Source: Terriglobia bacterium
GTDB lineage: Bacteria > Acidobacteriota > Terriglobia > Terriglobales > Acidobacteriaceae
Direction of reading: 5' to 3'
Length of the DNA: 64,000 nucleotides
NCBI GenBank assembly: GCA_021324365.1
Contig: JAJPJE010000045.1
Coordinates: 1-64,000 of the forward strand
Of this stretch, positions 54,762-57,755 are shown in pieces. Positions within the stretch are counted from its first letter, which is position 1; each line of letters starts with the position of its first letter. A model generated the notes under the pieces. The model was not told the origin of the DNA and did not search any database. It worked only from the letters and a program-made list of their open reading frames with translations. The position numbers and the translations under genes were made by a program.

Positions 54762-57755
54762 CTACCCAAGTTGATCCAGTGCAGTTTTTGCCTTGTTTCG
54801 CAGTACCTGCAACTCTTCAGCGCGGCGGCGCAGGCCATCGACAACATGAGTCGGCGCCTTGGAAAGAAATCCTTCGTTACTCAATTGACGTTGACCGTTA
54901 CCGATCTCTTTCTCGATCCTCTCCAATTCCTTCTGCAGACGCTGGCGCTCCGCGCCAACATCGATCTTGCGCTCGTAGATGACGCGCACGTCAAAGCGAG
55001 CCGTGCCGCGGGCTCCCGCTTCTTTCGCCAGAGAATGCTCGGTGAAGCGGATGTCGTCCACATTGGCAAGCCGCTCGACCGCGATAGCGTTGTCACGGAT
55101 CAGCTTCCAGATGGAGGCATCGGCATGAACTTCAATCGGTGTCCTGGTTCTCGGCTCGACCTTCATTTCGGCTCGCAGATTACGCACGCTGACGACGAGA
55201 TCCTGCAGAATGGCCATGTCCTGCTCGGCATCAAGATCGATCTGCTGCTGGCTGGCGGATGGAAATGCTGCCAGGGCAATCGATGCGACAGGCGGTTTCG
55301 CATTGTAAATCGCATGCCAGATCTCTTCGGTAATGAATGGCATGATGGGCGAAAGCAACCGCAGAGAAGCCTCGAATAAGCTGGCCAGATTCTGGCATGC
55401 GACGCGCGCCTGCTGCCGGTCTTTGTCGCTCTCGAAGTCGGCGAGGCGATTCTTGATCAGCTCGATGTACCAATCGCAAAGCTCGCCCCAGAAGAAGCTG
55501 TAGAGAACGTGAGCCGCTTCATGGAAGCGATAGGTCTGCAGAGCGTCGTTGACCTGCTGCGCTGTCTGATTGAAGCGGGAAAGGATCCACCGGTCGTCGA
55601 GGGTCTCTGCTTTAAATATCGGAATGCCGCAGACTCCTTCGCCTCGGCTCGACTCATGTGCTGCAGCCACCCGTGGCTGCCGTAATTCCTTCAGTGACCA
55701 AACTCCGGCTTCCGCAGCACGATCTACATTCATGAACATGAATCGCGCCGCGTTCCATATCTTATTTGCGAAAGAGCGATAGCCTTCGGTGCGGCTTTCA
55801 CTGAAGGCTATATCGGTCCCGGGCGATGCCATCGCTGCGAGTGTGAAACGCGTGGCATCGGTGCCGTATTTCTCGATCACCTGAATGGGATCGAGCACGT
55901 TGCCTTTGGTCTTCGACATCTTTTGCCGCTCGGCATCACGCACTAGCGCATGGATATAGACCTCACGGAAGGGAACCGACTCGGCCAGGTAGCGTTCCTC
56001 AAGTCTCTTCTGCAGCATTTCCATCGCGAGCACGCGATTGTCCTGCTGAGTGTGTCCCTCGCGGGAGACGATCTCAAGGCCGGTTGGTATGTGCGTTATT
56101 CGAACCGAGGCCTCTCCGCCTGCCAGCCCATCAATGCGCAGATCCGTGGCCAGGATTTCACTGTGGCCCGATTGCCGGCTGCTGAGTGCCGACGGCTTAT
56201 GCGGAGGACTCATGAAGTGGCAGCCCATCATGATCATGCGAGCCACCCAGAAAAACAGGATGTCAAAGCCGGTGATCAGCAGCGAGGTCGGGTAGAACGT
56301 TTCCAAGTCCCGCGTATTTTCCGGCCATCCCAGAGTCGTAAAGGGCAGCAGCGCGGACGAGAACCACGTGTCCAGAACATCAGTGTCCTGTATTAACTCA
56401 TGATGCGCGCAATTCTTGCAGTGGGCGGGCGTTTCCCTCGCCACAATGATCTCGCCGCATTTCTGGCAATGCCACGCTGGAATGCGATGTCCCCACCATA
56501 GCTGACGCGAGATGCACCAGTCGTGAATGTTCTCCATCCATTGCAGGTAAATGGTCTTGTAATTCTCAGGAGTAAATCGGATAAAGCCCTTGCTGACCGC
56601 GTCACTGGCGGCTTTCGCCATGCTGAGCCCGCCGGAACTCGGTTCCTTGTTCACTGCCACGAACCACTGGGTTGAAAGGCGCGGCTCAACAATGGTCTTA
56701 CAACGATCGCATTTGCCGATCGGAACCGTGTAGTCCCTTTCTCCGACAAAGAATCCCTGCTCACGCAGATCATTCATCACGCGCTCGCGTGCCTCGAAGC
56801 GATCGTGCCCGGCGTACCGGCCGGCGTTCTCGTTCATGCGGCCATGTTCGTCCATGATGTTGATCCGCGGGAGATCGTGTCGCAGACCCGCGGCGAAATC
56901 GTTCGCATCATGTGCAGGGGTGACTTTCACTACGCCCGTGCCGAACTCAGGCTGCGCCAGTTCATCTGCAATGACCGGAATCTCCCGATTCATGAGCGGA
57001 AGCAACACTCGCTTCCCGTGCAAATGCTTGTAGCGCTCGTCCTCAGGATTCACGGCAACGGCGGTGTCGCCCAGCATGGTTTCGGGACGCGTCGTCGCAA
57101 CAGTGAGGAATTCGTTTGTGCCGATTACCGGATACCGGATCTCGTAGAGCTTCCCCGGAAAATCCTCGTGTACCACTTCCAGATCGGAGATTGCGGTCCC
57201 GCAGCGCGGGCACCAGTTCACAATGTACTTGCCGCGGTAGATCAGTCCTTCGTCGTAGAGCCGGACGAAGACCTCACGCACCGCGTGCGAGAGATTTTCG
57301 TCCATGGTGAAGTATTCGCGGTGCCAATCAACTGAGGCGCCGAGCCGCTTCATCTGGTCGAGAATCGCGCCACCGTAATGCTTGCGCCACTCCCAGACAC
57401 GCTCGATGAACTTCTCGCGTCCAAGATCCTGGCGTTTTATGCCTTCGCTGGCCAGTTGGCGTTCCACCATCATCTGCGTGGCGATCCCCGCATGATCGGT
57501 GCCCGGTAGCCAAAGCGAAGTCTCGCCTCGCATGCGGTGCCAGCGGACGATGATGTCCATCTCCGTCTGATTCAGCATGTGCCCCATGTGCAGACGGCCA
57601 GTCACATTCGGAGGGGGCAACAACAGGGTGAAAACAGGGCGCGTGTCGCTGTCGGCGGGAGTCTTTACGGCAAACAGATTTTCCCTGGTCCAGTATTCCG
57701 CCCAGCGATTTTCAATCGCGCCGGGTTCGTACGCTTTGGGCAACTCGTTTGACAT
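54762..57755 (-). CDS. valS: Valyl-tRNA synthetase with an unusual internal insert
   Basis: The 997-residue class I synthetase has the HIGH-type motif PPNVTGRLHMGHMLNQ (48-63), CP1 editing domain (about 200-350), WWGHRIPAWHC and the KMSKS-type loop QKMSKTKGNVLDP (611-623). An anticodon-binding helical domain and a C-terminal coiled-coil arm (RQRLQKELERIEKEIG) follow. Typical bacterial ValS has 880-950 residues. The surplus comes mainly from residues about 517-593, between GCHFM and VPFREVYIHALVRDAE, where other ValS proteins have only a few residues. That segment resembles release factor domain 3 and is listed separately. The rest appears intact, so the enzyme should be functional. Confidence 0.95.
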   Translation of the reverse strand: MSNELPKAYEPGAIENRWAEYWTRENLFAVKTPADSDTRPVFTLLLPPPNVTGRLHMGHMLNQTEMDIIVRWHRMRGETSLWLPGTDHAGIATQMMVERQLASEGIKRQDLGREKFIERVWEWRKHYGGAILDQMKRLGASVDWHREYFTMDENLSHAVREVFVRLYDEGLIYRGKYIVNWCPRCGTAISDLEVVHEDFPGKLYEIRYPVIGTNEFLTVATTRPETMLGDTAVAVNPEDERYKHLHGKRVLLPLMNREIPVIADELAQPEFGTGVVKVTPAHDANDFAAGLRHDLPRINIMDEHGRMNENAGRYAGHDRFEARERVMNDLREQGFFVGERDYTVPIGKCDRCKTIVEPRLSTQWFVAVNKEPSSGGLSMAKAASDAVSKGFIRFTPENYKTIYLQWMENIHDWCISRQLWWGHRIPAWHCQKCGEIIVARETPAHCKNCAHHELIQDTDVLDTWFSSALLPFTTLGWPENTRDLETFYPTSLLITGFDILFFWVARMIMMGCHFMSPPHKPSALSSRQSGHSEILATDLRIDGLAGGEASVRITHIPTGLEIVSREGHTQQDNRVLAMEMLQKRLEERYLAESVPFREVYIHALVRDAERQKMSKTKGNVLDPIQVIEKYGTDATRFTLAAMASPGTDIAFSESRTEGYRSFANKIWNAARFMFMNVDRAAEAGVWSLKELRQPRVAAAHESSRGEGVCGIPIFKAETLDDRWILSRFNQTAQQVNDALQTYRFHEAAHVLYSFFWGELCDWYIELIKNRLADFESDKDRQQARVACQNLASLFEASLRLLSPIMPFITEEIWHAIYNAKPPVASIALAAFPSASQQQIDLDAEQDMAILQDLVVSVRNLRAEMKVEPRTRTPIEVHADASIWKLIRDNAIAVERLANVDDIRFTEHSLAKEAGARGTARFDVRVIYERKIDVGAERQRLQKELERIEKEIGNGQRQLSNEGFLSKAPTHVVDGLRRRAEELQVLRNKAKTALDQLG
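55977..56207 (-). other. Release-factor-like segment inserted inside valS
   Basis: Residues about 517-593 of ValS include DLRID, then GLAGGE, then ASVRITHIPTGLEIVSREG, then NRVLAMEMLQKRLEERYL. In RF1/RF2 domain 3 the order is DLRID, GAGGQ, SAVRITHIPTG, a QxxRSQxxN stretch, and a helix AMxxLxxRL. Here the nine residues VRITHIPTG match exactly, the spacing after them is kept, the catalytic GGQ reads GGE, and the loop residues between GGQ and VRITH are missing. The frame is continuous with ValS. Whether it is a functional appended domain or an inactive remnant cannot be told from sequence. Confidence 0.68.

Follow-up and report, generated by a model that had tools for sequence, protein, structure and literature searches.

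Recurrent insertion of one foreign domain into aminoacyl-tRNA synthetases has been described for CAAD, a cyanobacterial membrane anchor that is found in ValRS, IleRS, GluRS, LeuRS, ArgRS, CysRS and MetRS; according to the available part of that report, the host synthetases are all class I and monomeric, and ValRS catalysis was little affected by removal of CAAD (PMC4893482). Inactive domains of the release-factor type are known as well, since the mitoribosomal protein MRPS35 carries one without the catalytic Gln, for which the accessible text of a release-factor survey gives a proposed structural role (PMC6514570). Here, we describe a domain of this second kind lodged inside synthetases. The starting point is the window, a stretch of 64,000 nucleotides from a Terriglobia bacterium (assembly GCA_021324365.1, contig JAJPJE010000045.1, positions 1 to 64,000), in which the valS gene encodes a valyl-tRNA synthetase with an extra segment resembling domain 3 of the bacterial release factors (RF) RF1 and RF2.

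The valS gene occupies positions 54762..57755 of the minus strand as one continuous frame of 997 aa. The protein is a bacterial valyl-tRNA synthetase by its equivalog profile (NCBIfam NF004349, PRK05729, 1185 bits with a cut-off of 704; TIGR00422, 1042 with 612) and by the class I signatures HMGH and KMSKTKGN, the latter being the catalytic signature read from the translation at residues 612-619 (55899..55922, minus strand), downstream of the insert. It is encoded in single copy, the remaining genomic matches being partial and 26-42% identical, and its relatives among named records belong to Acidobacteriota, e.g. Acidobacteriaceae and Candidatus Sulfotelmatobacter. The source assembly is a draft of 4.44 Mb in 125 contigs, the ValS contig measuring 73 kb, and the genome has a normal RF1 and a normal RF2.

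The NCBIfam ValS models match the protein strongly until residue 518 and resume further on. The extra segment, delimited by locus comparison and by alignment to the ValRS chain 1gax, which we take to be that of T. thermophilus, comprises residues 517-593 (55977..56207, minus strand) in a length-variable loop. It is flanked by ...ARMIMMGCHFM and VPFREVYIHALV, ahead of KMSKTKGN, and falls between positions 508 and 511 of 1gax. Its first part, residues 517-537 (56145..56207, minus strand), is a linker mostly of low model confidence, whose start (SPPHKP) is similar to the loop start in the ValS of several relatives. The RF domain-3-like core follows at residues 538-590 (55986..56144, minus strand; profiles and models), with the letters DLRIDGLAGGEASVRITHIPTGLEIVSREGHTQQDNRVLAMEMLQKRLEERYL. 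The motifs DLRID, GLAGGE, ASVRITHIPTG and NRVLAMEMLQKRLEERYL succeed one another in this order, as an earlier annotation from the letters alone (the sequence-only reading) had listed them in the same continuous frame; GGQ is absent, and GGE with a shortened loop, then ASVRITH, stands instead.

With the 89-aa insert alone, the Pfam family RF-1 (PF00472) was matched at E=6.8e-8 and 32.9 bits, just below the curated cut-off of 35, and with the whole ValS of the window at E=1.4e-6 and 28.6 bits. No Pfam family other than RF-1 matches the insert at E<=10, and homology to CURT1/CAAD was not seen at that threshold. The NCBIfam profiles prfA, prfB and prfH all match the RF-like residues, and the RF2 of the same genome aligned with the insert in tblastn at E=2e-9 (the subject being just two short loci) with 40% identity. 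Among PDB sequences searched with phmmer, PrfH (3.9e-5), then RF1 and RF2, came after the repeat protein Ika8 (E=7.3e-9), which was rejected as a relative because its E-value sums several weak repeats (the best three with i-Evalues of 3.4-3.5). Judged from these comparisons, the core of the ValS insert is homologous to release-factor domain 3, beyond chance. The sequence-only reading had proposed this likeness, the capture of a translation-factor domain by a synthetase, and, from GGE and the shortened loop, that hydrolysis would be unlikely; these proposals are supported. Recent copying from the RF genes of the same genome was ruled out by the 40% protein identity to RF2 and by blastn, in which no DNA-level copy was seen (best E 0.24), and a second copy of the insert elsewhere in the source genome was not found, the matches being RF1, RF2 and ValS.

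The AlphaFold model of the insert, computed with RF rows in the alignment, presents a strand-strand-strand-helix order (model residues 24-29, 40-45, 50-54 and 60-83). Foldseek returned release factors in rows 1-45. In the same way, rows 1-36 of VIA-align are release factors, with Z 8.6 to a release factor of B. subtilis (70 residues superposed at 3.0 A) and Z 8.4 to a PrfH chain, values to be read with the tool's own caution that Z near 8 can be common. Dicer-partner chains appeared beneath the release factors (Z 6.3-7.2) and were read as a common structural arrangement. A model of the whole ValS built from ValS rows only, and hence free of RF information, gave strands at 550-553 and 560-563 and a helix at 570-592 (helix pLDDT 76-80), elements which coincide in residues with those of the RF-row model; a mixed alignment of ValS and RF rows was set aside, as the RF rows were badly placed. 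The insert is predicted from these models to have the RF domain-3 core fold. Release factors are the best PDB matches, none of them at a Foldseek E of 0.001.

Additionally, 397 genomes of the order were searched with the 53-residue ValS core. Apart from the core itself, the top four matches included three in genes longer than release factors; upon translation these proved to be GluRS in the genomes G369, G151 and G135, and lower-ranked matches gave GluRS in G361 and ArgRS in G292. A second ArgRS case, in G142, was found as an extra match in a profile search. A GGQ-less RF-like module is present in at least 7 of the 397 genomes (ValRS in one, that of the window, GluRS in four and ArgRS in two), which is a lower bound, being counted among the matches listed; moreover, match counts would not reveal a genome that has gained an insert but lacks an RF, as G292 does. 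The profiles A2 and A3 were built from inserts, so that the top ranking of inserts with them is partly circular; the search with the ValS insert only is not. The GluRS genes, whose inserts are RF1-like and located in the acceptor-arm (pZBD) region, are at L042:1153-2778 (G151), L106 (G361), L107 (G135) and L101 with L109 (G369), and the ArgRS genes, with inserts at one site in both genomes and differing loop remnants, are at L055:541-2706 (G292) and L099 (G142). Synthetase domains flank the insert in all three enzymes, and stop-codon recognition and GTPase-interacting domains are absent. Four of the six inserts outside the window were scanned with RF-1 (two of the four in GluRS and both in ArgRS), as whole proteins for G151 GluRS (39.3 bits) and G292 ArgRS (54.8), and as segments for G135 GluRS (40.9) and G142 ArgRS (47.1), the cut-off being 35. 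Among the matches listed, the hosts are these three class I synthetase genes, with none other than ValRS, GluRS and ArgRS.

The GluRS copy of G369 is split over two contig ends (end of G369:C119, start of G369:C318), the break falling within the RF-like insert, with the peptide SVAVRITHVPTGI on both. The listed contamination is 7 and 6 percent for G361 and G369, and 1-2 percent for G151, G135, G142 and G292.

The distribution is narrow. The two genera carrying GluRS inserts are represented by 45 and 24 genomes, of which 3 and 2 have an insert (matches at E<=1e-9); 34 of the 45 and 21 of the 24 are also in a set of 57 for which all matches at E<=1e-3 were taken and no further match with the frame and span of an insert was seen. 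Third matches in G092 and G191 were in frames of RF length only (one G092 frame was translated and is RF1, those of G191 were judged by length), and extra matches in G281 and G248 were an RF2 and an RF, each interrupted by unknown bases. In 297 genomes drawn from across the phylum, no insert-type match was seen among the matches listed, except that of the window itself. Full-length matches span 174-189 bases, as in RFs with the GGQ loop, against 153-162 in inserts, and short ones lie in frames of 125-286 aa; the matches of 11 phylum genomes with three matches each, and of others with long frames, were judged by frame length and match span alone. When all matches were taken for 17 phylum genomes with extra matches or long frames, only RF-type spans and short RF-like frames, untranslated, were met. 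A first scan for viral relatives with the genome's own RF2 yielded none, and the 13 RF-type loci of a second viral scan served only as alignment rows.

These data bear on the objection that the ValS insert is a chance resemblance or an assembly chimera. The ValS insert is indeed known from a single genome, in a draft of 125 contigs. Nevertheless, it lies in frame within its 73-kb contig, its third-position GC (0.688) matches that of the gene (0.687), and the lack of a DNA-level copy of the genome's own RF genes, the E-values, the predicted fold and the related inserts in six other genomes all speak against such an origin, which we find hardly credible.

The seven inserts extend from the strand [DG]LR[IV]D to a helix ending in L. 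None of them has the GGQ motif: where RFs have the GGQ loop, strands 1 and 2 are joined by short, differing sequences, by 7-10 residues shorter than the RF loop. Identity to the release factors of their own genomes is 0.52-0.56 for RF1 and 0.43-0.50 for RF2 in the GluRS inserts and in the ArgRS insert of G142; the G292 ArgRS insert is 0.63 identical to its own RF2 (its own RF1 was not found), and the ValS insert is closer to RF2 (0.43) than to RF1 (0.35). FastTree, applied to 62 sequences, unites the GluRS inserts in one group (0.94), which G142 ArgRS joins (0.84), adjoining RF1; G292 ArgRS is placed beside this RF1-like group (0.80), and the ValS insert stands apart. The donor is clear just for the set made of the GluRS inserts and G142 ArgRS, which look RF1-derived by sequence. 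Considering that there are three host genes, we therefore infer at least three insertion events; separate captures from RF genes and transfer between synthetases would not be separable on 54 residues.

All four insert groups retain ten of the 23 RF-conserved positions, including the VR-TH-P strand and the N, L and L of the helix. None of the four has the Gln of CQ that is invariant in RFs, and the net charge of the core, +4 to +7 in 67 RF rows (some genes twice), is -1 to +3 in the seven inserts. This pattern fits a fold that was retained and an rRNA-facing surface that was lost, if our assignment of that surface is right.

The donor domain of release factors acts at the peptidyl-transferase centre, and an RNA- or ribosome-facing role is a natural thought: the module would bind tRNA acceptor ends, rRNA or stalled ribosomes and link charging to quality control. 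The GluRS insert site corresponds to positions 109-126 of the GluRS chain 1g59, and it lies inside the domain of residues 101-150 of T. thermophilus GluRS which, in the available part of the source, contacts A73 and C74 of tRNA-Glu (PMC4381286). However, because the positive charge is lost, rRNA binding appears disfavoured on sequence grounds, and with the GGQ loop and the CQ glutamine gone as well we consider an RNA-facing role improbable. The contact with ribosome or tRNA in editing or quality control suggested by the sequence-only reading is not supported by these data.

Selection could be followed on the GluRS insert. In three pairs, dN/dS (NG86) of the insert is 0.27, 0.23 and 0.15, compared to 0.04-0.11 for the flanks, with Fisher P of 0.004, 4e-5 and 2e-7, and dN/dS>=1 was reached in 4, 0 and 0 of 1000 bootstraps. 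Therefore, the GluRS insert is under purifying selection, with a constraint weaker than that of the surrounding enzyme. The findings extend the sequence-only reading, which described a remnant in ValS: the module also occurs in other synthetases, and its GluRS version is not decaying.

The GluRS gene tree, from which the G369 gene was left out as split over contigs, places insert carriers in two genera, G135 adjoining the insert-less G225 (support 0.99). Near relatives with an empty site read like TPAHTGDSEKSGA[NQ][QG]TWLF, and filled genes ...SEKSGP-insert-GTWLF. The residue ahead of TWLF is G in the filled GluRS genes of one genus; 7 empty genes printed for that genus have Q, and 13 printed for the other genus have G, two of the latter with a varied WLF motif. 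Furthermore, dS of the insert is below that of the flanks in all three pairs (0.30 against 0.40/0.68; 0.71 against 1.37/1.27; 0.79 against 1.23/1.16). Short-tract transfer explains best this distribution, the alternative being an old insert with many losses. A broader proposal is that the GluRS insert is a transferable cassette, spreading between species by short-tract recombination whatever its function. It accounts for four inserts that form one clade with identical boundaries in carriers of two genera, for the low insert dS and for the junction residue of the other genus. On the other hand, dS from 61 codons is noisy, the junction evidence is a single residue, many losses of an old insert are conceivable, and no mobility enzyme or terminal repeat was found in a search confined to the junctions. 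We regard the cassette as a serious possibility that nevertheless falls short of an even chance, and one compatible with a captured structural module.

The insertion sites were then compared with those of relatives lacking the module. Among 110 ValS loci, 80 of them from named records and some contigs included twice, the 109 other than the window have no RF-like sequence in the loop, and the conservation in related ValS that the sequence-only reading proposed to check is thus not found; L005 and L006 have other long loops. The span from after the DIxFFW helix start to KMSKxKGN measures 37-91 residues in these loci and 108 in the window, and several of the longest other loops look low-complexity. 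Because loop length varies in this way, the ValS site is an insertion-tolerant loop shortly ahead of the KMSKS segment. The ArgRS inserts occupy a variable loop flanked by GCWV and VIVRSNGT, which corresponds to positions 277-291 of chain 1iq0 and has 15-60 residues in 26 loci without insert and 71 and 83 in the two with insert, the loops having been extracted by pattern in 28 of 30 ArgS and 23 of 30 GltX loci. In 17 long loops picked from ValS, GltX and ArgS loci no other domain was convincing (best non-synthetase E=0.021).

Two observations were made on these loops. The ValS loops of L175, L179 and L247 and the ArgS loop of L145 read like translated repeats (HVGAGAPTRPAA, HVGTGALARPAERSPGEN, LAPKERARTLRQAQGRLWGTD and LTTEGPSASLRAGSGDTEE), which we presume to be dispersed genomic repeats. 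The ArgRS loops of L136, L155, L141 and, more loosely, L148 have a common acidic insert, e.g. DDLDDLLIAIPLKPGVDFR in L136, with no convincing Pfam match.

Such variability is what one would expect of neutral filler, i.e. an RF fragment that landed in a permissive loop and whose fold persists since misfolded inserts would harm an essential enzyme; the ValS and ArgS loop lengths and the rarity of inserts in both GluRS-carrying genera agree with it. The hosts are, however, three class I synthetase genes and not random genes among the matches listed, the 17 long loops hold no other recognisable gene fragment, and the GluRS insert is under purifying selection, though selection against misfolding alone could yield the same. 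Neutral filler is in our view unlikely, if only by a step below the cassette. Since the hosts among the matches listed are class I synthetases throughout, and the 17 long loops held no further recognisable gene fragment, a selected job, as loop organiser or docking surface, is placed ahead of mere tolerance.

We therefore favour, as the probable account, a captured RF domain-3 core that serves as a catalytically dead folding module in the ValRS loop, with a structural or docking role. A bacterial class-1 release factor would have supplied the core of its peptidyl-hydrolase domain, which entered the ValRS loop in frame, lost the catalytic GGQ loop and had its positive charge eroded, the strand-strand-strand-helix order being retained; like modules would have entered two further class I synthetases, GluRS and ArgRS, of one bacterial family. 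The module probably folds independently on the synthetase and may order a floppy loop or present a docking surface, presumably with little effect on aminoacylation. Several points weigh against this account. The RF-1 score of the ValS insert is itself under the curated cut-off, and no Foldseek match reaches E 0.001 (best 1.6e-3). The insert model has a mean pLDDT of 69; the ValS-only model is weak overall (mean pLDDT 71.6, pTM 0.59), it lacks the first strand and gives the other two a pLDDT of about 50. The tree, drawn from 54 residues, has modest supports (0.67-0.94), selection on the ValS insert is not measurable from one genome, and the inserts are rare and patchy, as expected of a nearly neutral feature.

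A bolder form of the captured-module account would make the RF core a recurrently recruited and domesticated class I synthetase module of this Acidobacteriota family, a soluble analogue of CAAD that entered synthetases on several occasions, losing the GGQ loop at every one, and that offers a common docking surface to a translation factor, a PrmC-like enzyme or a synthetase assembly. It is doubtful, more so than neutral filler; if true, otherwise unrelated synthetases were given a common docking surface. Domain capture by synthetases is already known. What was not met in the open-licence literature is a fragment of the termination machinery lodged repeatedly in charging enzymes and, among the matches listed, nowhere else. 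The inserts offer natural experiments on the reasons for which class I synthetases take in foreign domains, and they bear on whether the RF hydrolase core folds autonomously without GGQ and whether charging and termination have common partners.

Compared with described systems, the inserts share with RF1 and RF2 domain 3 (PF00472) the sequence, the predicted strand-strand-strand-helix core and the VR-TH-P-[TS]-G strand, and differ by the missing GGQ, the loop shorter by 7-10 residues, the lost charge and the absence of the stop-codon and GTPase-interacting domains. No published description of an RF domain within a synthetase was found in the open-licence literature, preprints not being covered, and the available part of the release-factor survey mentions no synthetase carrier (PMC6514570). 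That text describes PrfH and ArfB/YaeJ, which likewise have the RF hydrolase domain outside RF1/RF2, whereas they keep the catalytic glutamine and act on ribosomes (PMC6514570). MRPS35, as presented there, is alike in having an RF hydrolase domain minus the catalytic Gln and a proposed structural role, but it is a eukaryotic ribosomal protein of suggested ICT1 descent and involves no synthetase. As far as the accessible text on CAAD goes, CAAD is the closest precedent for the insertion pattern: in both cases one domain from another gene occurs in several class I synthetases of one phylum, patchily and with a suggested spread between synthetases, whereas CAAD is a membrane anchor and the inserts described here stem from a release factor and lie in the catalytic or acceptor-arm part of the enzyme.

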